Shown here one piece after another: positions 11,701 through 57,455 of a stretch of 60,000 bases of DNA. Position numbers and translations under genes: made by a program. How positions within the stretch are numbered: position 1 is the stretch's first letter; each line of letters starts with the position of its first letter. Source of the stretch: Bolinopsis microptera (Eukaryota; Ctenophora; Tentaculata; Lobata; Bolinopsidae); the NCBI RefSeq assembly GCF_026151205.1, contig NC_087077.1, positions 7,433,983 through 7,493,982 on the forward strand, in the 5' to 3' direction. The notes beneath the pieces are model-generated. The model saw nothing but the letters and a program-made list of their open reading frames with translations, did no database searches and was not told the DNA's origin.

Positions 11701-14700
11701 AATGGAGAGATTCTACGGTCTTTCAAGGGAATGTTTACAGGGAAATAACAATAACTGATTGTAATTTCGTAACTGCCCCTGCTCTTACAACTACTACTAG
11801 GCCAGAAGCAATGTCATATCATATACATTATAAAAGTTACTAGATATAATTATGATGTTAAATAGGACCCAGCCATTTAACCGGATTTACAGAGCAATAT
11901 GTGAATTAAATATAATGTACATGTACAGTTAACTCATATTAACAGCAATCTATCTGCACAATTGAATCTTCTTGGCCCAAGGACAAATAGGACAGGTTGG
12001 AGCTAGTTATATTATATACAATATACATGTTATATCTTTAAATACGCTAAGTTCTTTAAACCAGTCCAATGGGCTAATGTGTACACTATACAGATCACCT
12101 ATTGGACTGGAGTTTAAATACCATATAGCCCAAATGAAATGTACACATGTTCACTGTTCAGCTCTGCGCTCCAAATTTCACAAAAAGAACTTAAGAATTG
12201 ACACTATTACAGCTCAGTCACAGCCCGCTGTGGAATGTAATGGAACTCATCGCCTTTATAATATCAATGTTGAATATCAGACTGTCAATAATTCAATGTT
12301 ATATATAACATTGAATAAAAAGCCTATATATAGGCTTTAATAAAAAGCCTATATATATAGGCTTTTTATGTAAAATTGAGATGTGTTAAGGTACACTTGT
12401 ACTGTGTGCCTGTTTTGTCAGGGTAAAGGCTTGTCAAAGTAAGGTAAAGAATTTCACACTTAATTACAGTAACACAACCCGTATCTCATAACACAACAAG
12501 TCTTGATACTTTGTACTGATGTTTTAAAACTTGCAACAATTCAGACAATAATGTAAACTGTGAGAGCTTATTTTAGTGACTTTTAGTTAATTTTAGTGAC
12601 TTTAACAAAGCTTCCAATGTTTTTAGTCTTAACAAAATCTACCCAAATTAGACTTATTTAGAAGGATGATTACACAGACTTGATGTACATACTAAAATTA
12701 CATGTAGATATTAGGGATAAAAATAAAGCTCTGTACTTACCGTCCTTCTTGTGGAGCCCATAAGCCATGGCAGCAGCAGTAGGTTCACTAATAATCCTCT
12801 TAATCTTCAAGCCAGCTAACTGCCCCGCTTTAGCCGTGTAATTCCTCTGATCCTAGTAATGACGTCACAGTTAATTAGCTAATTGGATAATTAACTATAC
12901 AGTGTCAACTCAGTTAATCCCGCTCAAAACAACCCTTATTACAATCTCATATTACCAATTATACATTTCTTATCATCACTGCTTTATTAATTACACCGTA
13001 TCACCTCTCGAGTGTAACCCTACCAATTACACTGAGGACCACTTAATGAGTAGTTGTAGTACTTGACACTGCAATATAATAATTAATATGATCTAAATTT
13101 CAAGTGGCAAGAGATTATTTATAATCTCAGGGAATAGTGATCGTGAAGGCGGTGAAGCCAATAACCTCTCCTATTCCAATGACCATAGTGCGTGATGAAG
13201 AATCACATCCTTTTCGAGGTGCTACTATTAAGCATTGTAATCTGTCCTGGGTGACTCCAGTATAAACAGATGACGTGCAACAAAACACTATGGATCTAGA
13301 CAGGCAAAGGTCGATAAAAAACCGGGTGCGAGATGCTGGCAACTTCTCCTCTCTAAAAGTTTGCTACTGAAACATTACACACAAATCAAGGACGGTGTGC
13401 TTTTACCTCTGCGAGGTCGGGTGAGACCAGGATGACGGCAACTGGGCAAAGCCTCAGGGACCCCAGTGGCCTGATGAGAAGAGTGGTTGCTCGTCATAAC
13501 AACAGAGTAATTAGTCAACAGATCGCTATTCGCTCATGTTGACACTGATTTCAGCAAGTCCAATCCTATCAACTACAGCAAACACTCAATGTACTTTGGA
13601 ACCTGGAATGTTTTATCTTTAGTCAGCTCATCTTCACAGCTTTATCAACTCAGTCAGAACATTGATCACTACAGTCTTGATATTTTGGGTATTACTGAAA
13701 CTCATATGCCAGGATCTGGAAGTACACTTTTGGACAATGGTAGTCTACTTATTCATTCTGGTAGGGGAGATGGTATCAAAAGGCAAGGGGTTGGCCTATG
13801 TCTTTCCAAAAAGGTCAGGAACTCCCTGATCTCTTATGTACCTACATCAGAGCGGGTCTTAACAGCTAGGTTACACGGCAAACACCTCAACATATCTGTT
13901 GTTGTAGCCTACGCTCCGACTGACGGTGCTGATGACGGAGAGAAAGATCGTTTTTACAACGTTTTATCAGACACGTTTGGTGAACTGCCCCGACATGATC
14001 TGAAACTGCTACTGGGTGACTTCAATGGAAAAGTTACTTCAAACAGATATGGATTCGAGGGAGTTATTGGTGGAGAATCTCTCCATAGTTCATCAAGCGA
14101 CAATGGGACCAGGCTCATGGATTTCTGTGCAGCCAATCAACTTGTTATTGGTGGAACTCTGTTCCAGCATAGAGACATCCACAAGGGTACATGGCGGTCT
14201 CCCAACGGGTTAACTGTGAATCAAATAGATCATATTTGTATTAGTGGACGATTCCAACACTCGCTACTCGATGTTAAGGTATGTCGTGGGGCGGACATTG
14301 GTTCAGATCACTATCTTGTTCGTGGACGGCTGCAAATCAAACTGCAGTCGTTAGCTAAGATCACTGCTAAAAGGCACGATGTGCCTGCTATCGAACATTT
14401 GCGAAACTCGTCTAAGGTTCAAGAGTACAACGTGGCTCTTCAGAACCGTTTTGATTGTCTGGCTAATGAGGTCAACCTTGAGGACATGTGGGATAATTTC
14501 AAGCAGACAGTCACTGATGTCTCGATGGAAGTGCTTGGAAAGCGTCCCCGGAAGGTTAAAGAACAACACCTTTCGCAAACCTCTAAGAACTTGATAGAGC
14601 AACGGGGAATGTTCAAACGGAGGGATCCCACTTCAAACGTCAATAGATCAGCCTACTCTAAACTTAATAAATTAGTTAAGAAAAGCTGTAAAATTGACGA

Positions 14701-17700
14701 CAACAACTGGGCTACTAAAATAGCGACTGATCTAGAGGAGGCTTCTAAGAAAGGCCAGCAAAGAGAAGTTTGGGATAAGATAAAGAAGATTTCTGGGAAA
14801 AAGAAGAAGAAAGTGGGTATGTCAGTTAGGGATAAGGATGGTCATTTTATTACAGACCCGGACAGTCAGAAGGAAAGGTGGAAGGAGCACTTTACTGAGC
14901 TCTTAAATCCTCCACTATCGGATGCCAATCTTGATGACCTCGATGGTGTGCCCTCACAATCGTTTGTTGTTTAAAAAGGTCTCAAATGCCAGACTCGATA
15001 AGGGTTTACCGTTAAATGCAAATTTTAGTTCATGAAAAGTGCAGCTGAAGTCTGCTGTAAATTTTGCTCCAATTATTTACCTTTTTCTCAAGTCTTACTT
15101 CGACAAGTAGGAATAATACTATCGATTTAAATTTACCACAATTTGGTTTGTACTTTTAGTGTATAAGTATTAATCAAGTGATAAACTTGTGACAAGTATT
15201 ACTTCATAGAAAAAAATCTACCTTCAAAAGTATGTAATGTAAGTCACAATATTGCCACAAAAGTTTTTTTCCCGACAAATAATCGAATCTAGCCACAATC
15301 GAATTCTCAGACCTATCTCTACTACCTTCAAGGACGATAGATCAATTACTGCATGATTGCTAGTGGGTTAAATGTGCCTGTAATTAAGTGTATAAAGTAG
15401 TAGTGTAAGTCACAGTGTAATGTAAGTCACAATGTAATGTATGTCACACATACCAAAACGACACCTTAAAATCCCTGCTGAGCAACAATACAGTTCAGAC
15501 TTAATGTAGTTCGACTGTTCTGTTTCATACAAATTCACCTGTAAAAGAACGCGAACTAGGAAGTTGAAAAAACTTCCTATTTGTGAACTGTCTTTGCTGT
15601 GTTGTGTTGCTGTCTAAGATTGTCGATTAGGCTGTATCAAAAAACACAAACATGGTCCAATAATTGATGCACCTTCAAAAAAGTTGCATTAGGTCATTGT
15701 GAGTTTGGAAAAAAAATTTAGAGTTCAACTCCAACCTTATATCGTGGTATTTTTCGTTTCCATGGTAACCACTCTGTCGCGGTCGCGTTTACTGTTCAAT
15801 TAAATTCATATCTAGAGAACCATACCACTTAGAGAACTGTGTTATAGCTTAAAAGAACCGGAATAGCCAAGTTTATATTCAACTTATCAATCAACTATAT
15901 GCCTAGAACCTTTATTTTTTGAGTTAAAGGCAATAATGTATTTCGTCGATATTATTAAAATATGATTTCAAGTTATTGGGGATTATTACATTTATGTGTT
16001 ATGTTATTACCAAATGAGCATGTAGAATCAAAAAAATTTTGTATTCCAAGTTAATATCACACGAAAATGAATTTTTATCTTGGTTTCAGGAGATAAAGTA
16101 ATGTAAGTCACAAATGTCTGTAATGTAAGTCACAAATGTATGAGGGTGATGTACGTAATAAACGAATGAACGAATCTTAAACTTAGCATTTTTTAGCAGC
16201 TTAAGGCCTCAAATTTGCAGAAATTTTAGATGAAAGCCGCTATCTGACATATTCGAGATAGAATTGCAGTATGAATACACCTATGTCCGAAAATCAAAGT
16301 CTGATTGATTGATTGATTGAGGAGCACTACCCGAAGGCATTACTCGGCACTAACGCCTTAAAATCTTTAATTACAATCAAATATAAATATATGCACACAA
16401 TGTATAAAGTATTAATAATGTATAAAATATGATTATGCTATTAGCAAATTTAAATAGTACTATTAAGAATTTTAAATAACTCTTATCTCTTGACATAAAT
16501 TTAGAACAGCGACACAGGGTCTGAAGAATGCGCGGTGATATTTTTATCTTTTAAAAGTTGTAAATGACAGTGAAATTGCGCGGTGTCGATAGCATTGTAA
16601 AAAATACTCGAAGATAGTCATATTTTGTTATGAGGTTAAAGTTTTGTTGCTCGTTATTATGATCAACGTATGTTGTACCAAATTATTTAAATTTCTAAAA
16701 GTACGAAATTTGAGTTGTCCCAGTCCTTGTCATCCGGTTTATGTGCTTGTGCAGTAAGCACATGCTTGTTGACTGTAGACTTGAATGAATTTAGGAATTT
16801 GTCTTGTAGGCAAGTGGTGACATATTTTATGTCCTTGTTAATAATGTTGACTGTTTGGTTATATAACTTAGGCCCAATGTAAGAAATGCTCTTGTCTGAA
16901 TTACATAAACGGTTAAATGGTACTGCAAAGAACTCAGGTTCTCTTCTAGGTGCGTTTAAGTTTGAAACAGTGAACATTCTTATAATATTTGGTGGTGCAG
17001 TGTTAGAATAAACTTTGTGCATTAAGCATAATATACATTTAGCTATCACGTTCGGTAAAGCTAATACTTCTAGTTTATTGAAAATTTCCTTTGTGTGTGA
17101 AGGTGTGCTATTCAGATCTTTGTCATAAAAATAGCGGTGGTATTGGTTATCTGCAGCGCGAATGCCCTTTTTCTGGGCCGAGAAGACTCTTTTAACGGAG
17201 TTTAGCGATCTTGTTCCCCAAACTGTGCAGCAGTAGTACAAGTGAGACTGAACAAAGCTGTTGTATATCAACTTGAGTGCTTTGTTAGGTACTGAGCCTT
17301 TGAGTTTGTAGAGAATACCCGCATTTCTAGATACTTTAGTGGCTAAATGTCTAATATGGTGGGCCCAATTTAGCTTAGTATCAATGATCACGCCAAGAAA
17401 CTTTTCGTGATAACTTTGCTTTAGTCGCTCACCTCCCATGTAGATTTCTATATCCTTAGTTTTTTTATTTGTAAAGATCATATATTTAGTTTTGCTAGCA
17501 TTTAATTTAAGCCCGTTATTAGTAGCCCAATCAATTATCAAAGTCAGAATCTCATTCACCAATGCATTAAGTTGTTCAAATGTATTTGTACTTATTATTA
17601 GGTTTGCGTCGTCAGCGAAATAAATATGTTTAGCTAAATTACTAATCTGAGGAAGGTCGTTGATGTAGATTATGAACAGAATTGGTCCGAGAATGGAGCC

Positions 17701-20700
17701 CTGTGGTACTCCGTAGTTAAGTTTGAGGTGAGAGGACTTGCAGTTGTTGACGCTCACGTATTGCTCTCTATCGGTTAGATATGAGTGAAACCAAGATAAA
17801 GCCAACCCCCGAACTCCATAGTGCTCAAGTTTTCTCAGAAGAATACTGCTGTCAACCATGTCAAAGGCCTTGCTGTAGTCCAATAGAAGCAGTGCTGTGA
17901 CCTGCTTTTTTTCTAGTGCCCTGTGAATATGGTTTTGGGCTTCTAGTAAAGCATGTTCGCAGCTGTGCCCAGCCCGAAATCCGTATTGAGAGTCAAATAG
18001 GATTTTCTCTGTCTTTAAGTGATCTAATAGTCGCGCTTGCATAAATTTTTCAAAGATTTTTGAGAAACATGAGAGTAGTGAGATAGGTCGATAGTTTGAA
18101 ACTTCAGCACGTGACCCACCTTTGTGAAGTGGAACTACTTTCGCGATTTTCAATTTATGCGGAAACTTCCCCTGATGTAGAGACGCAGAGACTAGGCAGC
18201 TAAGCACTGGTGCAAGTATATTGCTCACTTTTTTCAGGGGAAGTATACTCATATCAGAAGTCGACTTAATCTTCAAACCCTTAACTATTTCAATTATTTC
18301 TGATGCGGACGAATCTTCTAGATTCATGCTCCGCTGGCATTTGCTATCTTGAGTTTCTGTTACGATAGTCCTGCCCTCAGAGCATACGAGACCATTTTCT
18401 CTCTTAAGAGTCTCAGCTATATTGCAGAAATAGTCATTGAAGCTATTCGCAATTTGCTGAGAATCTGTTATCTCGCTCCCATTATAGTTAATTTTGTTTA
18501 TCTTAATTTTGCCTTTTTTCTTTCTGTTTAACAAGTTATTAACCATTTGCCATTGTTTTCTGCTGTCGCTAGAATATTTTGTAAAGTACGCGTTGTAATA
18601 TTTGTTTTTGGCCTTATCCACGTGTTTATTCACAAATTTCTTCATTTTCTTGTACCTAATATCATTTTCAGTGGTCGGGTTTGTGACAAAATCTTCATAA
18701 AATTTATTTTTGCGATCACATGCGCACCGTAACCATTCTTGGATCCACGGCTTTGTGTTTTTACGGCGGCCTGGTTTACTCTTTTTTGCCTTAATTGGGA
18801 AATTTCGGTCGTATAGTTCACTATATTTTTTATCGAAAGCCTCAAATTTTTCATCTACAGAATCATAGTTATTAACCAAGTTCCAGTCTACCGCAGAAAT
18901 GTCGTTCTCGAACTTTTGGATACTGTCATCGTTTATTACTCGAGAAGACATCTCTGTTGTATCTTCTTGAAGTTTACAACTGAGCCTATTCTGATCAACC
19001 ATGATTGTGACAAAAGTTGCCAAGTGGTCAGAGATTGACTCAGAAATTACTCCCGATTTTGTAACAGCGTGGCAATTATTGACGAAAATATGGTCAATGA
19101 TTGTCGCACTGTGATCTGTGACTCTAGTTGGTCTAGATATCACAGGAGCGAACCCATGCTCTGCTAGAGTGTCCACATACTTAGTGACAGAGTCTATTCT
19201 CCCGTAATCTAGTAGGTCTATGTTAGTATCACCGGCCAGTATGATATTTTTGTTTCGATGTCTTGCTAAGTTACGGAGGAAAATTTTTAATTGTTCAAGG
19301 AAACCATTCAAATCCCCACTTGGAGAGCGATATATATTACAGATTAACGCGTTTTTGTGCCCTTTCAAGGTAAGTTCTGCAACCAAGAATTCTCCTATCT
19401 TAGGATTATCGTGGCAACATAGAGCGCTCTTAACGTTTATGTCAGATAATTCACATAGTTTTTTGTTAACATATATAACTAATCCTCCACCACGATTTGA
19501 CGCTCTGGCGGGAGTCTGAACATACGGTGGATAGAAACCGTCTAGTTCGAGCTCCTCTCCCTGAAAAGGCAAACATTCCGTGTTACAATTTGTTTCATTG
19601 AAGCAGAGAACGTCGTATTTTGTGTATTGATTTATATTCTCCCGAAATTCTTCAATGTTCCCATTAAGTGACCTAACGTTTAGCGAGAAAAGTTTTAATT
19701 CATACTCCTTCGTATTTTTTATTGCTTTCGCGGTATAGTATTTGCAGTTATTTAGAAGACTAGACGTTGTTTCCCATGGATTCAAATCAGCATCAGTATC
19801 ATCACGATCACCTATTTGATTTGATAGGTGTTCGCGATTAAAGGGGTTAAACCTAATAGTGTTACTGAGATTTATCATGTGAAGCTGTCTAATGGAGAAA
19901 TCATATGCTGGGAAAATTTTTCTCAAGCATTCTTTGCAGCCTGTTGAGCCAGCAGAACATCTTGTGTGGGATAGGTTGTCACAGTAGCAACATTTGGTCA
20001 TTTGTCTTACATTCCCAATTTTTGTGCAAGTGTGACATTTTTCTCGTTTATTGGAGACTGGGATTTGTATAGGCCGTGATGGTAATAGAGGCATGACGGC
20101 GCCCACTGGAAGAATTTCTGAAATGCAGCTGTAGCAAGACCATTCTCCAGTAAGTTCAGTTATGTCGCTAGGTGTTAGGTGAGCACATTTTGGGTGATAT
20201 GTCATATAACAGATACTACAAGTGATGCTTATCTTGTGTGAGACTAGGCGCTTTGTACAGGCCTTACAGCTATTTTTACTACTTCGGATAACTACCATTT
20301 TTTTGCTGTAAATGATACTCTTGTTTAAATGTAGATATAGGTTTGCTACTGTATATTAATATGTAATAAAGTACACGGAAAAACAGTTACTGAAAGTATC
20401 TACTCCAGATGAGTGAGCCAAGAAAATGGGGCCAGGGAAGAGTGAGAAAACGTGCGAGGTTTTGTGAACACTCTGTCCGGGTCCCTAACTTCAGCTCCTA
20501 ACTAGAGAAATCAATTCAGTTAAGTGTTATTCTGTGGGAATAAGTTTAAAAAGTTAATTGAAGTATGTGAAATGTGAATGTGACTTGTATTCTGTATTTG
20601 TAACTTGTAAGTGTATGTACTTAGTGGTCTGATTACGTGATTCAAATTAGTAAAGATAAGATTTCGATTTGCCGTAAGCTGGTGCAGATAAGACATGGTT

Positions 20701-23700
20701 CGTATACTGTACGATTCTTAGTAGATTAATAATTATGTCCAAATTTTCGATGTAGTATGTTTGTATATTGTATTGCTGTTCTAAGGTCTGCCCAATGAAG
20801 AAACATACTCCCGTCTTAGCGGCCAGTGTTTTCGAATTAAGTAGCTGCGCCCCATAAATTCTTTGACACAGGTAGCAAGAGAGCGAGCTATCTCTCTCTT
20901 GGACAGTACTGTTAGGTGGATTCCGTTTCCATCAGGATCTACAATGACCTCTCTTCTCTGGTATAAAACAGTACAAATATGGTGCGAGTCAAAGAACCAT
21001 AGCTTGGACACTCTATTGCTTAGTTCAAAAATAAAACTGTTAAAAAGCTTAACCTCCTCATTAAGCCACGAGAAACGTGTGAGAACTAAAGAATTAAATA
21101 TAAAAGTCGTGTTAGGATATTTCTCAATTAGATAAACAATATTTCTTTTAAAATCACATGAAAGGGAGTGGTGGTGGTGGTCATAGCGAGATAAATCGTT
21201 TATACCAGAAGAAATTATGACAATTTTAGAGCCAGAAATATACTGTTCGTGATCTAAAATTTTGGATAACTGGTACATTTCGCGTTTGATGCAGTGTACG
21301 TTAGGAAGGTCGAAAGGAACATCTCTGAGAAGCGAGTCCGTCAAGAATAATAGACGCTCCTTAGGTTGAGACTGCTCAGTAACTGTAGGCTTATGAATCG
21401 GTTCGTGGATCCTCGGGATTTTTTTGCGAGGGGGGGTATTCTGAGAGAGGCGTCTGAACGTAAGCGATATTCTGCAGTCCTGAGTTTCTGGTTGTGGCAA
21501 TATACCATGCTCCCAGAAATTCTGTGATTCACGTGTCATCACATACACACATCCATGATCAAGTTTGTGGATCTGTTGTTTGACCGGACCGACTTTGCTA
21601 CGAAATACCAGGTCTCTAGAAGCCCCAAGACTGAGTGTAATGATGTCACCAGTGACCTCATTTTCATCATCACTGTGGAAGGGTATATGGCACTTGCCGT
21701 TTTCATATTTGGTGATTAGACAAGTTACCTGCTCCTTATTAAACGTAGGGTCATCTAATGCATTCGAAATGTTTGTAAAAATGTGGTCAATAACGGAGTT
21801 CTGAGGATAGTTTCTGGCATGATGCACGGTTGACCCATAGCGGTAATCTGTTGCTCCGAAGTACTGTACGGATCGGGATGCGATTCTGCGGAAGTTCATG
21901 CCCTTGCAGATGTCCATCCAATTAATGTCATTAAAGTTCACACTTAGATTACATACCGGAGTAGGTAGAGCTGCGGAGGGTGAGCTGATCACTAACTGTG
22001 GTGGGGCTGGAGCAGAAGGGAGTGCGCTGTTTCCGACGCAGTCTGCGGTTGTTCTCCGAACTTCTGTCTTGTAGTCCTCTAGTGTTGTTTCTGCCTTCTC
22101 CAGCAAACCGGAAAAATGGTTCATTAACGAATCTATTTTAGCGACATCTACCGTAAACGAATTGATAAAGTTAGCATTTTTACAATCGTTCTCCAGTTTT
22201 TGTTTCAATAGAACTTTACGTTTTGAAGTCTTAGTGTTGGTTTTAATCCCTAAATCAATTCCCAATGAATTGTTGTACGAGATTTCGTGCGCCATGTGCT
22301 CGTCCTTAACGTGCTCGAACAGATCGAGACATAGTTTAGGTGACAGGGTAGGAAGCCACTGTCCAAAAGTTATGTCTGTTTGAGTACTAACGCACATACC
22401 GTGTGTGGTAGGGGTTGCCAGGCAGTGTTCTGTAGAGGTAGTGGTATGGGCACCACTACCTGGCAGCCCGGAGTCCGAAGAGATGATGTCCATATTAGGA
22501 GTTGGTTGGATGTACATTTGTTGTAAATTTGAGTGTAAGGCAGTCTTATCAGCACCAGCTTACAATCTATCGGCGGCTTATCAAACTATACTAGCGATTT
22601 AAAAGCATGCGTAATACATAAAACTATTTGTTGAGGAAAAACTATTTTGTCTATCCTGTAATGTAAGTCACACTTTTTTGGCAGGCGATTGTGTACAATT
22701 TCCTTAAGACACAGACTAAATTATACCTGCATTGTTCTGAAGAGGTTCCGGATACGGAAATAAATACCAAAATATCATCTCATCATGCATGGTTACCGAG
22801 TCATGACTCCTCAAAGGTAAAAATTTGCTATCTCGGTAATGTAAGTCACAAAAAAAATGCCCATCTACAAGGCTGCTGTTATTACTATTCTGTTATATGG
22901 AGCTGAAGTGTGGAACACAACAAAGAAGCAGATGAAACGGTTTGAGGTCTTCCATCTGACCTCCCTGAGAAGAATCTTGAAGATAAAGTGGTTCTTCCAT
23001 GTCTCCAATGAAGAAGTTCTCAGGCGTGCTGGAATTAAGTCTATCGAAACTTTCATCGGTGCGGCTAGACTAAGGTCGTACGGACATGTTGTCAGAATGC
23101 CAGAGACGCGGTTCCCCAATTTCTTACTGGATTGGAAACCAAACTATGGAAAGACACTGAGAGGACGACCCCGCAAAGGCTGGATGGCCTGTGTACTCGA
23201 GGATGCGGCTGAATTTACAGGTGTCGATAACATCAGCAGAGATGCAGTAAAACAGTTGGCTCTAAAGCGAGTGGAATGGAGGAACATGTTACGCCGTAGA
23301 AGAGATGTGTGTGATGCAGGCCACTCCAACGACTAGGAGGAGACCTCTTCATGTAGCATGTATGTATGTATGTAAATTTCAAGTAAGATTTAACTGTAGG
23401 TTAGTCTTGTAGCACTTGACACTGCAATATAATATGATCTAAATTTCAAGTAAGATTTAACTGTAGGTTAGTGATTAGTCTGTACGGAGCCTCCCAGCTG
23501 TTATTACCTGTTTAACTAGCTGTACAGTAGGGATATTATCTGGGTTTACAGGTTTACCAGGTTAGGCTTTTAACCAGCACTACAGCGCACAAATTGTATT
23601 TATAGTTTCAGATAACTTACCCAGTTAAAATCAGCAGGAACGCTCATAACTCCCATGTTAATACTTGTATCGACTCTGTCCTCGGCTGTTTTCTTCAGTT

Positions 23701-29338: not shown

Positions 29339-30249
29339 GGGTGAACCAGTGGCTTAACGAAAGGCCCTGCTGACCCTGCTGTGCAGGGGGGCGCCGCGCC
29401 GTCTTAGGGGGGCGCCAAATCGTCGTTTGAATGTGGGACAATTTCGAAAACTTAACTAATGTACTAGCAAAACTGCGCGTTTTGCTCTAGATACACACTT
29501 TTTTAGAGATTTTACCGGCGTATTCTTTAAAATCACCTAATTTGTTCAATTTTAGGGAGGGGCACCAAAAGGGGAGGGGGCGCCAACAGGGGGGGCGCTT
29601 TTTTCGGCAGGGGGGCGCCAACAGGCAACGTTACGCCACTGGGGTGAACTTGAGTAATCAGTACATGAACATTATTGGTGTAGTACATTAGGCCCATGCC
29701 CCATATTGACGGGTTTTTTCTAGTTTTTTCTAATTTGATATTCTAGTTATTACTTATTCAAATTGTTCAATTATAATGTAAATGAAAGTTGCAGCTTTCA
29801 ATATGAAAATACCAGTTTTGGTCCCGGTCATCCCGGTCATCCCGGTCATCCCGGTCATCCCGGTCATCCCGGTAAAATTGGATTGTTGGTCCCGGTGCCG
29901 GTAAATTGATAATCTCCCCAATCTCAGCCCCGGTCCCGGTCCCGGTCAAGTCACATTTTGTATCCCGGTCCCGGTCAGGCCTGAAATCATGTCCCGGTCA
30001 CCTCCTGCTTTTAATCCGATAGAAAAATATTGTTCCTAGCCGAAATTATCGCCAGTAAAAGGTCAGCGCTTGTGTGTAATTGTATTGCGCGAGCGATTTT
30101 TGATCGCGTGCCCTGAAAATCGAGTCTAAAAATCTATCGTCTCTTACATTTTCATATCATAAAATATAATCAATAATACCGAACAATTGCACTGTAAAAC
30201 ATGCTCACGATACACTCAAAATTGCAAATATTCAACGGCTCGTATAATG
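29339..30249. repeat. Tandem duplication unit A, copy 1
   Basis: About 0.9 kb, nearly identical to 34077-35013. It starts at the target duplication of a hAT-like element and runs to CGGCTCGTATA. In the ancestral arrangement it was followed by unit B (see 33942-34076), but a 3.7-kb element now separates them. Confidence 0.8.
29347..29641. mobile_element. hAT-like MITE, copy 1 (295 bp)
   Basis: Ends CAGTGGCTTAACG and CGTTACGCCACTG are inverted copies with one mismatch. The 8-bp target duplication GGGTGAAC is intact at 29339-29346 and 29642-29649. The interior has GGGGGGCGCC runs. This is a classical hAT signature without coding capacity. Confidence 0.88.
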
Positions 30250-30639
30250 GGTGATTCTCATCAAAACCGACCCAAAATTACTCTACACACTCAACCTATT
30301 GTCATATAATCATTTTTTTAACGATTTGATTAATTTTTGTACAATCATGTAGAGAATTGGGCGTAGAATAACAGGTCATCAAAATATATAACTAAAATAT
30401 AACTTAAAAATATAAAATTAAGTTTATACTGCTAAAAAAGGCCAAAAACGGGAGGTGTCAGATAATGTTCCACCCGTAACACAGGCCTTTCAGACACTAT
30501 AACTCATCTTATGATCAATATTTTTTCACAAAACTTTCTGAAAGGCTTATTTATAGGACAGGTAGTACTTCTAACAAGTTTGGAATCTTTATCTTAGTAG
30601 ATAAGGAAAATTTAGGCTGATAAAGATCTGGGGCGTCAC

Positions 30640-30800
30640 GCCCGTAACAAACCCGTAACGAACCCGTAACACGTTACGGGTGTAACAAATTCTCAAATGT
30701 TACACCCGTAACACGTTACGGGCGTAACAATTTCTCAAATGTTACACCTGTAACACGTTGTTGGTGCAACGAATTTGTAATTAATGTAACACCCGTACAG
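30640..30800. repeat. GTTACGGGTGTAAC palindromic array, left
   Basis: Repeated CCCGTAACACGTTACGGG palindromes separated by AATTCTCAAATGTTACA. The same unit forms the larger right-hand array at 33525-33785. Confidence 0.85.
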
Positions 30801-30944
30801 TTGGTATCAAAATGGTACCAATACTAGTAGGTGTGTAATGTAAGTACGATGTACTGTAGTGTCTGGAAGAGTAAATATCTTTCTAGATAGGTATGTGGTT
30901 GAATTCTTCATGATTGAATTTGACACGAGGAAGCAATGTTATTC

Positions 30945-32935
30945 TAGTTCAGCTATTCTCCTCGGTCCTCCGCAGTCCTCCACCTCAGTCCTCCTCTTCA
31001 TCCTTCTCCTTAGTCCTCCTCCTCAGTCCTCTTCCTCCTCAGTCCTCCCCCAGTCCCCCTCCTCCTATTCAGTACTTCTCATTCTCCTCAGTCCTCCTCC
31101 TCCTCCTCATCCTTCTTCTTAGTCCTCCTCCTCCTCAGTCCTCCTCCTTCTCATCCTCCTCCTACTGAGTTCTCCTCCTCCTCCTCCTCCTCCTACCTCT
31201 CAGTCCTCCTCCTCAGTCCTCCTCTTTATCCTCCTCCTCTTCCTCCTCAGTCCTCCTCTTCCTCCTAAGTCCTCCCCTCCTCAGTCCTCCTCCTACTCCT
31301 ACTCCGCGCAGTTCTCCTCAGTCCTCCTCCTTCTCAGTCCTCCTCCTCCTCAGTCCTTCTCCTCCTCAGTCCTCCTCCTCTCTTCACCTCCTTTCTCCTC
31401 AGTCCTCCTTCTTCTCATCCTCCTCCTACTGAGTTCTCCTCCTCCTCCTCCTCCTCCTACCTCTCAGTCCTCCTCCTCAGTCCTCCTCTTTATCCTCCTC
31501 CTCTTCCTCCTCAGTCCTCCTCTTCCTCCTAAGTCCTCCCCTCCTCAGTCCTCCTCCTACTCCTACTCCGCGCAGTTCTCCTCAGTCCTCCTCCTTCTCA
31601 GTCCTCCTCCTCCCCCAGTCCCCCTCCTCCTATTCAGTACTTCTCCTCCTTCTCCTCAGTTCTGCTCAGTCCTCCTCCTCAGTCATCCTCCTCCTCAGTC
31701 CTCCTCCTCTTCCTCCTCCTCCTGGGTCCTCCTCCTGGGTCCTCCTGATCCTCATCAGTCCTCCTCCTCCTCCTCATCAGTCCTCTTCACTAGTCCTCCT
31801 CCTCAGTCCTCCTTCTCCTCATCCTCCTTCTCATTAGTCCTCCTCATCCTCCTCATACACCTCCTTCTCCTCATCAGTCCTCCTCCTCAGTCCTCAGTCC
31901 TCAGTCCTCCTCCTCAGTCCTCAGTCCTCCTTCTCCTCCTCCTTGTCCTCAGTCCTCCTCATCAGTTCTCATCAGTCCTCATCAGTTCTCCTCCTCCCCA
32001 GTCCTCCTCCTCCTCCTCATTGGGCATTTTCCTGGGTCCTCCTCCTGGGTCTTCCTCCTCCTCAGTCCTCCTCCTCATCCTTCTCCTTAGTCCTCCTCCT
32101 CCTCAGTCCTCCTCCTCCTCAGTCCTCCCCCAGTCCCCCTCCTCCTCCTCCTATTCAGTCCTCCTTCTTCTCAGTTCTCCTCAGTCCTCCTCCTCCTCCT
32201 CCTCCTGGGTCCTCCTCCTGGGTCCTTTTGGTCCTCCTCAGTCCTCTTTCTCCTCCTACTCCTCAATCCTCCTCCTCCTCAGTCCTCCTCTTCCTCCTAA
32301 GTCCTCCCCTCCTCAGTCCTCCTCCTACTCCTCCTCGTCCTCAGTCCTCCTCATCAGTCCTCCTCCTCCCCAGTCCTCCTCCTCGTCCTCAGTCCTCATC
32401 CTCCTTCTTCTCAGTTCTCGTCCTCCTGGGTCGTCCTCCTCCTCAGTCCTCCTGCTTCTCCTCCTCAGTCCTTCTCCTCTTCCTCCTCCTCAGTCCTCTC
32501 CCCTGTCACCCTCCTCCTCTTCCTCCTCCTCCTCCTTCTCCCTTTCTCCTCAGTCCTCCTCCTTCTCCTCAGTCCTCCTCCTTGTAAGTCCTTCTCCTCC
32601 TCCTCCTAATCCCCCTTCTCCTCAGTCCTCCTCCTTCTCCTCAGTCCTCCTCCTTCTCAGTCCTCCTCCTCCTCAGTCCTCTTCAGTCTTCCTCTTCTTT
32701 CTCCTCAGTTCTCTTCCTCCTCCTCAGTCCTCCCCCAGTCCTCCCCCAGTCCTCCTCCTCATCTGTCCTCCTTCTCCTCCTCAGTCCTCCTCCTCCTCTT
32801 GAGTCCTTCTTCTCCTCCTCCTCCTCCTATTCATTCCTCCTTCTCAGTTCTCCTCCTCAGTCTTACTCCTCCTCAGCCCCCCTCCTCTTCCTCCTCAGTC
32901 CCCTCCTCAGTCCCCCTCCTCCTCTTCCTCTCTTT
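30945..32935. repeat. Two-kilobase pyrimidine tract, (TCC)n with CAGTCCTCC
   Basis: The plus strand is almost pure C/T broken by CAG every 10-20 bases. It includes a large internal direct duplication: about 31160-31350 recurs at about 31420-31615 (both with ACTCCGCGCAGTTCTCC). Open frames of up to 260 codons (Ser/Pro/Leu only) are by-products of composition. Confidence 0.92.
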
Positions 32936-33524
32936 CATCTCTCAATAATTTGTTCAATTTATTATTATTGTTGGTGTTATTGTTTACATAATTTATTGTT
33001 ATATACTAAAATGTTTTTAAACGCATTTGAGTCTGACTCGAAATGTGCTCAAGAATTTTTGTGTTTAACAAAGTTTTACTCTCCAGTAATATGGAAAAGT
33101 TGTTACATGATATTTTTCATAAATGAATTGATTTTCATCCCTTTTTATGCTATTAAATAATGTGTAGACTATTCTTTGTGCCTAATAAAGGATTAAAAGT
33201 TTGAGAAAGGACCATGGTCATTAACCGGGCTACCCATTTCTGCAGATAGCCTGTTACAAATTGTGGAGAACATTTAAATCAAAAGTTACAATTTTAGTCC
33301 GTTTTTGTCCGTTCGGTACCCTATTTTCTGAAAACGGACAAAAATTAACGGATAAAAACGGACAAAAACGGACAAAAAATAACATGATCCCCCCTACACT
33401 TTCGTAAATTTACATTATGTAGCTTAAACTTTAATCGTTTTACTTTGTACAGGTGAAATTTATAAAAGATGATGAATGGGTGAATAATGTACATCAATAA
33501 AGTAATAAAGTATACAAACAATCC

Positions 33525-33785
33525 GTTTGTAACGTGTTACAGGTGTAACATTTGAGAATTTGTAATACCCGTAACATGTTACGGGTGTAACATTTGAGAA
33601 TTTGTAATACCCGTAACGTGTTACGGGTGTAACATTTGAGAATTTGTTATACCCGTAACGTGTTACGGGTGTAACATTTGAGCATTTGTTACACCCGTAA
33701 TGCGTTACGGGTGTAACATTTGAGAATTTGTTACACCCGTAATGCGTTACGGGTGTAACAGAAATCGTTACGGGTGTAACACACT
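33525..33785. repeat. 42-bp palindromic repeat array, right
   Basis: About six units of 42 bp, each with GTAACATTTGAGAATTTG and the palindrome CCCGTAAxxxGTTACGGG. This mirrors the array at 30640-30800 near the opposite end of the element. Confidence 0.88.
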
Positions 33786-33941
33786 TAATTGCCAATTACT
33801 CATTAATTGGTGGGGCAATATCTGACCCCTATACATATTTAAGTAGAGGAACTAACCCGATTTATCATAATGTAATTTTTTTCGTTCTATGACCAACTTT
33901 CAAATCCCGTGTTTTTTGGGTCGGTTTTGATGAGAATCACC

Positions 33942-34076
33942 TCGTATATGAAACTTAGCGACTTACACTCAGTGTACACCCAGTGTTAACCAGTATTACA
34001 CACTAGTAAATTCTACGTAACGCGCGAAAACAATAATTCTGTAGCGTTTTCATTGTCACATCTCACATCGACGGGA
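33942..34076. repeat. Tandem duplication unit B, copy 1
   Basis: 135 bp (CTCGTATATGAAACTTAGCG to CACATCGACGGGA) nearly identical to 35014-35148. With unit A it forms a tandem A-B-A-B arrangement. Confidence 0.85.
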
Positions 34077-54402: not shown

Positions 54403-55772
54403 TTATATATAGTTGATAGAAAATATACTGGATGGGCATGTAATGCGAGTGTTATGCTCTGAAATAGCGAGCATTGGGCCTTTATAAAAGATGCTAGATC
54501 TCAGGTCAGTCTGTGAGTAAATTGATAACCAGTCTAAGTTTTGTTCGTGTGTCGTTCCTTGTTTGGGTGTGTTATGAGGGAAAAGTTCTGAAATCGATTT
54601 AGGTAACAAACTAGACATATTTCGAACTTTGTGCAGTAAAATAAGTGCGTTTTTAACGATAACCCCTTGAACGGTTAAGACCTCGTGTTCTTTAATTATG
54701 CTAGTTTTGTGTGCTCTGGCAGTTTTCCGTCCTTGTAGTAGTAGTTCACATTTCCGGCCATAACTGCCCTCATACCTTGTTTTTGTTTAGCAAAAAGAGA
54801 TTCTATAAGAGATTTTGAAGCAAATCCCCAGACAAGTGAGCAGAAGTTTAAATGGGACTGAACAAAACTTTGGAAAATCTGTAATCGGGCCTTCATTGGC
54901 AATTTATGTTTTATCCTGTACATCACCCCAATAAATCTTGACATCTTGCTCCTCAGTGCTTTTATGTGGCTACTCCAGTTAAGCTTTTCATCTACAATTA
55001 CACCAAGAAACCGGGCTTCAGTTTTACGTTCTAATACTATATTTTCTATTTGTACATTAATCAATGATGGTTCTATGCGCTTTTTCGAGAAAATCACATA
55101 ACACGTCTTTTTTAGATTTAGTGCTAATCCGTTGCTATTAACCCACCGTGATAATGTTTCCGTTAATTGGTTGACCCGTAGCATTAGTTTTTGGACATTG
55201 GAACCGTTAATAATGATATTTGCATCGTCTGCATAAAGTATGAATTTTACCATCATGTTAGAAATACCGGGAAGATCGTTGATGTATATGACGAAAAGTA
55301 AGGGACCTAGAATGCTCCCTTGTGGAACACCATGCACAATAGGCTTGTGGGACGAATGTGAATTGTTTAATATTGCTACATATTGGCTTCTATCACTTAG
55401 GTATGACTCAAACCATTTTAGAGCTATTCCCCGGATGCCGTAGTGCTGTAATTTATTTAGCAGTGTAGCATGATCCAGGACGTCAAAAGCTTTACTGTAA
55501 TCTAATAATAGCAGTAGTGAAATTTGGTTTTTGCTAAGAGAGTGTAAAATTGTACTTTGTGCATTAAGAAGAGCATGTTCACAGGACCTTCCTGGACGGA
55601 ACCCATACTGATTTTCGAATAAAGAACTATTTTTGTTGAGAAATTCTAAGACACGTCGGTGCATCAGTTTTTCGTAGATTTTTGAGAAAGAACCTAAGAG
55701 AGAGATGGGTCTATAATTTTCAACGTCAAGTTTAGAGCCTCCTTTATGGATGGGAGTTACTTTGAAAAATAC
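54403..55772 (-). pseudogene. Truncated CR1-like LINE reverse transcriptase
   Basis: The minus strand encodes [69 protein letters not shown] and ...LPEHTK. This is close to the reverse transcriptase of the intact LINE at 16687-20298 but clearly a different subfamily. At about 54698 a frameshift is needed: the next frame continues TSIIKEHEVLTVQGVIVKNA and SELFPHNTPKQGTTHEQN to the stop at 54403. The 5' side breaks off just before KVTPIHKGG at a CTCTCTCTCTCT microsatellite (about 55772-55790), so the endonuclease and ORF1 are missing. Confidence 0.88.
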
Positions 55773-55814
55773 CTCTCTCTCTCTCTCTCCTAAGTTTAGC
55801 ATCTCCCCACTCAT

Positions 55815-57455
55815 GCACTAGTTTGAAATAATCACATACACTGAGACTACTTGGGAGGTATCTCTCGGTATTTAGAGGTATTTAGGAGCACTTCCCTGTT
55901 TACTATCGAGCCCACTTCTCTCCCAGTCTCAGATGATGTAGTTCACGGTGTAATCCCCTAAAATACACTTAAACTGAGCTACAATCTGGTAACTTTGTAA
56001 CCAAGTCTCTGCAGGCGGGGCGTTGCTAGGGAGCCGGCGGGACGTTGCTAGGGCACACCGTCATCTCAAAATTAGGACTAATTTCAAAACTATGTTAATG
56101 AGAGCCGACGTAAAGTGAAGAATACCGTCTCTGGAATCTGGAGCGGGGTTTAAAATTCGAAAATAATTTTTTCCCTAATTTCTCTAATTTCGCCTCTGAA
56201 AAGAGCCGTAGTTCGTTGTAATAATACATCCGGTTTATAGGTTAAAGCCCTCATCATGGATAGATTACACTCATTCTCCAAAACTACGTCACCTATAAAT
56301 AACATCTCTTCCGCACAACCTTTGCTTTGCAGATTACTATCAATTTAAAATATTTACAGTAATAAATGTGAAAATACTCATTAACCCCACCGCAAATCAG
56401 ATTAAATGAATCGGGCGTCGAATGAACATTTCGGAACCTTTTACTGGTCAATATCATTACAACAAGGACTAATTCCTGCTATTTTTTCTGAAATTTGCCT
56501 TTGACCGGACATTACTCATTAGGCACTGGGGTCCTCGTACGACCTCACTTCCTGACGGAAATGACGGTAAAAACCTTTGCTTAAGTCACTCAGGGCGCAT
56601 TTTGTTTCATCTAATCGGGATGTGCTATTTATATCCGGGACAGGAGTCAACATTAGGGATCAGTGTAGAAATGACGTACAATCGGGTTTAGTTTCCTGAA
56701 ATTGATATCAAAAAATTATATGTTTTGTTTTGCAGCAGAATTATCAAATAAACGGAAAAAACTATGAATGAAGCTTGGCATTCGAATATTTCCATTCAAT
56801 GAATCGTTTTTATGAGTTAAAATTTGTCATTGCAAAGAAAAACTCAGACCTGATTTTATATGAGACAAGAGAAACGCCATCTTATAATATCACGTACCAT
56901 CATGATAAAATAGCTTGCCTTAAATTCGGGTCAAGATGTAAAATAACAATTACTTTTTAAGCTCTTAGAGTTCACGGATGAGACTAAAGAACATATTTTG
57001 TTGTAAACTATGTTTATATCGGTTAGTTATCCCAAAAGCTGGGTAAACTTTTAGAGCAGTTTCTTTTTCCTGCGACACCCATTTCCACATTTCAGTCAAA
57101 TAAATTATGTAAAGTATGCATATGAGTTGTTTTTATTACACATTTGCCCGGCAAGTGGCGACTAAAACAGCCGTCACAACCACCCCGCACAACCACCCCG
57201 CACTGGAGTGAACCGGATTTAAATTAACCGAGTATTGACCTAGTACGGTTACAAAATACAACCTGTATTTCAATTGGAATTTCCGGTGGTAGATTTGTAG
57301 GAGTGGTAGGTAACGTAGTTAGCTAGGTAATACGGTTACTATATCACATTATACAGGGTTAGAGAGGTGGTGGTTCCACTCTCAGCCAGTATTTACAGTC
57401 GACATTTAGAGATCTGTATTATCAGGACTGTGATTGTGGAAGTAGAGAATGAACA
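55815..57455. other. Gene-free stretch
   Basis: No exon or RNA gene recognised. 57180-57205 has a doubled CACAACCACCCCG motif. Confidence 0.35.

Follow-up and report, generated by a model that had tools for sequence, protein, structure and literature searches.

A LINE ORF1 protein of Bolinopsis microptera joining an ALKBH2/3-type AlkB domain to a divergent SGNH-like domain, and the recurrence of this pairing in other LINEs and a Helitron

We report here that the open reading frame 1 (ORF1) protein of a long interspersed nuclear element (LINE) of the ctenophore Bolinopsis microptera carries an AlkB dioxygenase domain which, by its sequence matches, is of the ALKBH2/3 type, followed on the same chain by a domain resembling the SGNH hydrolases. 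The element lies on the minus strand of the window, by which we mean the whole 60,000-nucleotide stretch of contig NC_087077.1 (positions 7,433,983 to 7,493,982) that was analyzed; coordinates below are positions within it. As judged by sequence comparison, AlkB plus SGNH is a recurring pairing, found in LINEs of distant reverse transcriptase (RT) lineages and also in a Helitron. We propose, at a probability somewhat short of even (roughly 0.45), that the ORF1 protein may use its dioxygenase to clear N1-methyladenine (m1A) and N3-methylcytosine (m3C) from the element's own template.

The AlkB and SGNH-like domains of ORF1

The ORF1 frame and its coordinates were correctly called by an earlier sequence-only reading of the window, made without database searches: the frame is intact over 578 residues on the minus strand, and the plus strand across the same coordinates has many stops in the frame read. 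The three motifs that this reading took for AlkB iron and 2-oxoglutarate ligands (HSDDE, WEHG and RISLTFR) are present, and residues 222-355 match the Pfam family PF13532 at 74.4 bits (expectation value, E, 1.8e-20; Pfam cut-off 31.2). The domain limits given in Table 1 come from hmmsearch with an AlkB profile built on sequences of the present analysis. The ligands are invariant in an 11-sequence ORF1 alignment drawn from families A (that of the window) to F, and the same His, Asp, His, Arg and Arg are invariant in a further eight of eight ORF1 sequences of other families. The pattern HxDxE, which includes a Glu two residues past the iron-binding Asp, occurs in all 25 AlkB sequences compared (counting L021-L023, three frames described below), and RxxxxxR in all 22 when those three are excluded. 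In ALKBH2 and ALKBH3 this acidic residue touches the exocyclic amine of m1A or m3C. With its ligands intact, the domain is a plausible catalyst.

Searched with phmmer against the sequences of the Protein Data Bank (PDB), the window ORF1 alone finds ALKBH2 as its best match (E 2.6e-9). A profile of the 11 ORF1 sequences finds ALKBH3 (1.4e-23), ALKBH2 (2.9e-18) and ALKBH8 (5e-7), and of the 24 matches that it gives up to E 10 none is named ALKBH5 or FTO. In a single search, the profile of the eight other-family ORF1 sequences matches ALKBH2 (1.6e-22), ALKBH3 (1.2e-20) and bacterial AlkB (5e-6) as well as the ORF1 esterase of the LINE ZfL2-1 (4c1b, 9e-7), and ALKBH5 and FTO are not among the best 60 of its 70 matches. 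The NCBIfam models matched by the transposon proteins that we tried are bacterial AlkB models, all below threshold. These comparisons place the domain in the ALKBH2/3 type, with ALKBH3 and ALKBH2 as its closest solved relatives. Single-sequence AlphaFold2 gave models too poor for a fold search, with a mean pLDDT (predicted local distance difference test score) of 29.4 for AlkB and 43.7 for the SGNH-like domain.

The same sequence-only reading had placed an SGNH-like domain further along the frame on the basis of TDSLL, SGIND and GIHL. The motifs are there (S395, N440 and H534), and the assignment holds through relatives more firmly than for the window protein alone. The SGNH family PF13472 matches the window ORF1 under its cut-off (E 0.031) and, at E up to 1, eight of the 11 aligned members, the best at 0.001. 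When eight SGNH regions of families A-G are compared by hhalign with 11 regions of other families, the probability is 96 and E 2.9e-9. The profile of those 11 regions finds 2hsj, a putative PAF hydrolase, first (9e-13) and 4c1b second (6.3e-12); the eight-sequence A-G profile, set against PDB SGNH structures, finds only 3p94 (E 0.03). The homology of the window domain to the ZfL2-1 esterase is accordingly supported by way of the intermediate families only. For orientation, the residues of the ZfL2-1 esterase are S143, G165, N195, D279 and H282 (PMC3905857).

The catalytic residues are not equally preserved across families. The Ser, Asn, Asp and His of the SGNH domain are invariant in 11/11 and 8/8 sequences of other families, and DxxH is kept in all 11 SGNH sequences of the types that we call PHD, X, cc and Helitron. 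In families A-F the Asp three positions before H534 is missing, D527 at position -7 being invariant instead, and the canonical Gly of block II is also missing, in the window protein as in the rest of these families. Because these two residues are absent, we describe the window domain as SGNH-like and divergent, not as a proven esterase, and catalysis by it in the window's family is in doubt. Outside the two domains, a check for a coiled coil ahead of AlkB gave a weak heptad signal in the N-terminal region (4 of 8 a/d positions). At the C-terminus, WPLR is found in families A, B, C and E and PLRR in G; families D and F have neither.

Table 1. Features of the LINE copy in the window
Feature	Coordinates	Strand	Basis or remark
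Whole LINE copy, ~6.3 kb	16302..22632	-	ends from blastn comparison with six family-A loci
ORF1, 578 aa: N-terminal region, AlkB, SGNH-like, basic C-terminal tail	20781..22517	-	
ORF1 N-terminal region, residues 1-204	21906..22517	-	less constrained than AlkB
AlkB (2OG-FeII_Oxy_2), residues 205-359	21441..21905	-	limits by hmmsearch
HxD Fe(II) ligands H281, D283 (HSDDE; E285)	21669..21677	-	invariant in 11/11 ORF1s
Distal Fe(II) ligand H337 (WEHG)	21507..21509	-	invariant in 11/11 ORF1s
RxxxxxR 2-oxoglutarate ligands R349, R355 (RISLTFR)	21453..21473	-	invariant in 11/11 ORF1s
SGNH-hydrolase-like domain, residues 387-555	20853..21359	-	weak alone, supported via relatives
Block I serine S395 (TDSLL)	21333..21335	-	invariant in 11/11
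Block III asparagine N440 (SGIND/GINDL)	21198..21200	-	invariant in 11/11
Block V histidine H534 (GIHL)	20916..20918	-	invariant in 11/11
Basic C-terminal tail, WPLRRE motif	20784..20852	-	pI 11.45
ORF2, 1203 aa	16687..20298	-	intact frame
PHD/C1-like zinc finger, ORF2 N-terminus, residues 11-58	20125..20268	-	PF00628 E 9.3e-4, below cut-off
APE-type endonuclease, ORF2 residues 205-425	19024..19686	-	PF03372 E 1.5e-14
Reverse transcriptase, ORF2 residues 733-972	17383..18102	-	PF00078 E 9.3e-38
3' (CAAT)n tail	16302..16319	-	sequence listing

Recurrence of the pairing and selection on AlkB

The genome (264.65 Mb searched) holds at least 76 matches to ORF1, whose identity lies between 33% and 100% (75 scored out of 785 candidates) and which are spread over many contigs. 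The earlier claim had been made to depend on the existence of further copies that keep the two domains next to an ORF2, and this is borne out: taking as long frames, from stop to stop, an ORF1 of 590 aa or more and an ORF2 of 1150 aa or more, we find both in 11 of the 20 relatives fetched (L002, L004, L005, L007, L008, L009, L011, L012, L013, L014 and L016; the ORF1 of L005 is without its first 20 residues), the other nine being broken, truncated or cut. ORF1 proteins of families A to F share 29-44% identity with one another, except for D and F at 62%. All seven ORF2 proteins scanned, one from each of families A-G, contain endonuclease and RT.

Matches to PF13532 number at least 151 in the genome (150 of 587 candidates scored). 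Copies of families B and G are not among the matches listed, though they carry AlkB; the idea that family G is an AlkB-free sister, prompted by the lack of a listed AlkB match near its ORF2, was rejected, as the fetched G locus carries both domains. Since the matches listed overlook such copies, absence from them is no proof that a family is free of AlkB. Of 17 PF13532 places fetched, 14 are transposon frames or a transposon fragment, the fragment (L025) being related to PHD3. Leaving aside L025 and L021-L023, the 13 places comprise ten LINE ORF1s and three Helitron frames. The LINE ORF1s have the order PHD-AlkB-SGNH (L024/L032, L033 and L035), AlkB-SGNH (L028, L034 and L036) or AlkB, coiled-coil-like segment and SGNH (the cc type, L029-L031). 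In L033 Pfam gives no SGNH match up to E 1 and the SGNH residues are visible in the alignment only, and L031, in which no long ORF2 frame was seen, is counted as a LINE by its likeness to L029 and L030. The RT of the cc LINEs is very divergent, scoring 79 bits against the window RT as compared with at least 198 for the other full-length RT pieces. At a further locus (L042), upstream of another ORF2, all frames are shorter than 150 aa, perhaps because the copy there was truncated or has decayed.

The three Helitron frames (L026, L027 and L037) begin with SGNH and then AlkB, the reverse of the LINE order. Their AlkB matches are strong (E 4.2e-22, 4.2e-21 and 2.2e-22, respectively); the PF13472 values are 8.7e-7, 7.5e-6 and 5.2e-8, with only L037 over the cut-off. 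Beyond AlkB the frames of L026 and L027 run on into DUF6570 and Helitron_like_N, that of L037 stopping earlier, and the piece that follows at the L026 place (L040) encodes Helitron_like_N (Rep) and a PIF1 helicase (E 2.2e-21). On this domain evidence a DNA transposon also carries the pair, with the order reversed. The pairing that the sequence-only reading had noticed in one LINE ORF1 is thus real and extends to several LINE families and to a Helitron. The AlkB tree puts the Helitron sequences within the main transposon group (99/97), adjoining PHD1 (85/80), and a tree with a LINE-only AlkB clade that leaves out the Helitron (cc omitted) is not rejected (approximately unbiased test, p-AU 0.088).

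Two stand-alone frames, one ALKBH2-like (L021, E 3.9e-60) and one ALKBH3-like (L022, 2.5e-39), fall outside the main transposon AlkB group (split support 99/97) and are presumably host genes. The third, L023, has an ALKBH3-like frame at positions 455-1342 of its plus strand (E 1.6e-27), followed after 0.7 kb on that strand (2054-2911) by a 286-aa SGNH frame (PF13472 E 4.4e-4) with the blocks LSDS, AGTND and DGLH. L023 may represent a further mobile form, in which each domain has a frame of its own, or may comprise host genes, and because of the SGNH frame downstream its host-gene label in our trees is doubtful. The cc AlkB joins L021-L023 in the midpoint-rooted tree. As the split between all transposon AlkBs, cc included, and L021-L023 has a support of only 83/73, the trees are compatible with one AlkB capture or with two. 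In family G (L039) the RT joins families A-F (92/97) and the AlkB joins X1-X3 (87/97), which suggests exchange of ORF1, though not significantly: an AlkB tree that keeps G beside A-F is not rejected (p-AU 0.155).

Ratios of nonsynonymous to synonymous change (Ka/Ks, by Nei-Gojobori) were computed across copies, as the sequence-only reading had called for, here for AlkB and for the parts of ORF1 before and after it. In family A the AlkB value is 0.12, with 0.27 before and 0.23 after (15 pairs, not independent), pointing to selection for function. In ORF2 of four family-A copies, the endonuclease gives 0.11, the RT 0.09 and the finger 0.76. In the window's family AlkB is therefore under purifying selection, about as strong as that on the core enzymes of the element. 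The corresponding values for AlkB, before and after are 0.07, 0.21 and 0.22 in the cc type; 0.18, 0.38 and 0.60 in the Helitron (one pair); 0.19, 0.66 and 0.18 in PHD1 (one pair); 0.11, 0.28 and 0.11 between families D and F (Ks saturated); and 0.16 and 0.18 between X1 and X2, where the part after AlkB is not computable (Ks saturated).

Possible roles of the paired domains

Methylation to m1A or m3C lies on the base-pairing face and blocks reverse transcription, and laboratories use AlkB so that RTs can read tRNA. Both LINEs and Helitrons have a single-stranded nucleic-acid intermediate, and ALKBH3 prefers single-stranded substrates. In the mechanism that we favor, the ORF1 protein would coat the RNA of its own element, acting in cis and perhaps assembling with itself by way of the N-terminal region; bound in this manner, it would be in a good position to clear the template. 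The AlkB domain would oxidatively strip m1A and m3C from that RNA and perhaps from the nascent single-stranded cDNA, and with each removal the yield of new insertions and their fidelity would rise. The SGNH domain perhaps contacts membranes or lipids, as proposed for other SGNH ORF1 proteins; this part is taken by analogy from ZfL2-1 (PMC3905857). Removal of m1A and m3C is favored over erasure of N6-methyladenosine (m6A) because the AlkB domain is nearest to ALKBH3 and ALKBH2 and neither ALKBH5 nor FTO is among the matches given above (all 24 of one profile and the best 60 of 70 of the other). The element-borne demethylase that the sequence-only reading had imagined thus survives in part: the ALKBH2/3 type suits repair and the clearing of an RT template, and unmarking of m6A is disfavored.

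Several observations weigh against this mechanism. The Asn of the NxY motif, which usually stabilizes 2-oxoglutarate, is replaced by Thr in families A-F (TKY and similar), with the Tyr kept; the Asn is retained in X1, X2, PHD1, PHD3, cc and the Helitron. The 11-sequence profile also weakly matches entries labelled DNA N6-methyl adenine demethylase (E 0.006-0.024), and a substrate type drawn from overall similarity and one Glu is a weak guide, AlkB enzymes being promiscuous. A Helitron has no RT, so that clearing of an RT template cannot explain its AlkB; it would fit a broader version in which single-stranded nucleic acid is protected. The stand-alone ALKBH2-like and ALKBH3-like frames of the genome leave unexplained why the elements need an AlkB of their own. 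In family F, moreover, AlkB is the least constrained part of ORF1 (Ka/Ks 1.30, with 0.21 before and 0.15 after; 10 AlkB changes, one pair), and the values for AlkB, before and after are 0.31, 2.26 and 0.09 in family B (12 AlkB changes) and 0.31, 0.93 and 0.31 in family C (2 AlkB changes). Families D and E show zero AlkB amino-acid changes on 1 and 4 synonymous changes. The sparse families neither support nor contradict constraint on AlkB.

Erasure by AlkB of m6A, or of some other regulatory methyl mark on RNA, would let the element RNA evade surveillance by host m6A readers. The genome has exons of an MT-A70 methyltransferase (7 matches), and the AlkB of an orchid Ty3/Gypsy element demethylates m6A in vitro and was proposed to serve such evasion (PMC9289625). 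That enzyme, however, groups with ALKBH5 in the same paper, unlike the window AlkB with its ALKBH2/3 matches, and in human L1 it is m6A that helps the element and ALKBH5 that suppresses it (PMC7873242), so that we regard m6A erasure as unlikely. We are similarly doubtful that AlkB acts on DNA, whether to repair or unmark the LINE cDNA, the inserted copy or the displaced strand of the Helitron, relief of silencing by methylated bases included; such a role would be one that both classes of element share. In favor of this, AlkB occurs in a Helitron next to Rep and PIF1 helicase domains, Helitrons move as single-stranded DNA, and the nearest relatives, ALKBH2 and ALKBH3, repair DNA. The weak demethylase matches mentioned above point the same way, as do two lines of published work: loss of mouse ALKBH1 is reported to lead to more N6-methyladenine on young L1 DNA, to other repressive marks and to silencing of nearby genes (reviewed in PMC4982230), and the N6-methyladenine mark is said to inactivate L1 (PMC8535693). 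Against it, the AlkB of LINEs belongs to the RNA-binding ORF1 protein rather than to that of ORF2, and the only strong C5-methyltransferase match in the genome is DNMT2-like, in an exon-wise search that may miss DNMT1 and DNMT3. 5-Methylcytosine is not a usual substrate of ALKBH2/3-type enzymes, although they have reportedly, in one case, oxidized it in vitro. The present data do not separate action on DNA from action on RNA.

It is also conceivable, though rather improbable, that AlkB and SGNH serve as RNA- and lipid-binding modules in ribonucleoprotein assembly, with catalysis incidental. Schneider et al. propose lipid or membrane binding for the ZfL2-1 esterase (PMC3905857), and the loss of the DxxH Asp and block II Gly from families A-F would agree with this; the five AlkB ligands, however, are invariant across families about 30% identical and the SGNH residues are invariant in the other families, neither of which binding alone would need. 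About as improbable in our estimation is that the AlkB and SGNH domains together form a portable counter-modification cassette, which unrelated transposon classes of this animal share and exchange. So wide a spread would imply that the host marks or damages transposon nucleic acid with m1A or m3C as an unrecognized defense, and the elements would erase these lesions with the SGNH domain assisting, for example by acyl removal. The carriers behind this idea are LINEs from two or more distant RT lineages, a Helitron in which the domain order is reversed and perhaps the two-frame L023. An artefactual origin of the fusion, as a pseudogene, an assembly error or contamination, could be entertained from the window protein alone, in which a single domain of the pair scores strongly. 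It is refuted by copies on many contigs with intact frames, by their divergent families and by purifying selection in the window's family, and chance fusion is excluded because 11/11 sequences, from families 29-44% identical (D and F at 62%), keep every AlkB ligand unchanged along with the Ser, Asn and His of SGNH.

The element in its window and in relation to known systems

The window holds a young full-length LINE. By its domain content it is classed as an APE-type LINE of the Jockey/CR1/L2 group, with ORF2 482 bases downstream of ORF1 and no RNase H family among five Pfam matches at E up to 10. Similarity to the family-A loci reaches a 5' limit at 22625-22647 in five of six, so that the start near 22632 is an estimate, and a 3' limit at 16301-16302 in three of six, ending earlier in the remaining three; the 3' ends of L002, L004 and L005 resemble the (CAAT)n tail of the window copy. 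Pieces of other LINEs lie nearby: an RT frame at 54699-55817 (minus strand) with 75% identity to the family E RT, and open frames at 13511-14971 and 22845-23333 (both plus strand) resembling endonuclease and RT pieces, the latter just outside the 5' end of the element. Separately, the region ~30001-34000 shows strong strand asymmetry (GC skew -0.497 and -0.434) together with low-complexity Ser/Leu/Pro frames.

To the question of what enzyme-bearing ORF1 proteins do, AlkB, a well-understood enzyme, offers beside SGNH a concrete and testable answer, the chemical maintenance of the template. With its recurrence in a Helitron, base demethylation would be a wider need of transposons and not the quirk of one family. 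In genomes of this kind, the AlkB or ALKBH genes counted may largely be transposon genes, and such counts inflated. A natural pair of RT and demethylase also has potential use in the sequencing of modified RNA. AlkB in retrotransposons is already known from the orchid Ty3/Gypsy element (PMC9289625). For AlkB in a LINE ORF1 or a Helitron we saw no report among the papers listed by full-text searches of one open-access library, some of whose lists were truncated and outside which Repbase and most subscription papers fall, and our claim of novelty for the AlkB and SGNH pairing in these elements is limited to the same extent.

Several known systems share parts of this arrangement. ALKBH2 and ALKBH3, the closest solved relatives, have the same ligands and HxDxE but are stand-alone cellular repair enzymes. 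For the AlkB of plant flexiviruses and their relatives we know of no SGNH partner. Like the present elements these RNA viruses are genetic parasites, and their AlkB is postulated to keep the RNA intact (PMC9289625). The Type IV ORF1 proteins of CR1, L2 and RTEX LINEs, such as ZfL2-1, likewise have SGNH towards the C-terminus (PMC3905857, PMC4120745), and the word AlkB is absent from the main text of both papers; the window protein differs in that AlkB precedes SGNH and in the residues lost from families A-F. A parallel in a retrotransposon is the Ty3/Gypsy element of the orchid Phalaenopsis, whose AlkB activity was shown in vitro (PMC9289625). It is a long terminal repeat (LTR) element in which AlkB forms a separate ORF, described as a recent acquisition and as an m6A eraser of the ALKBH5 type. 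In the window, by contrast, the AlkB domain belongs to a LINE ORF1, shares one chain with an SGNH-like domain, appears to be of the ALKBH2/3 type, and has counterparts in many families of a single genome.

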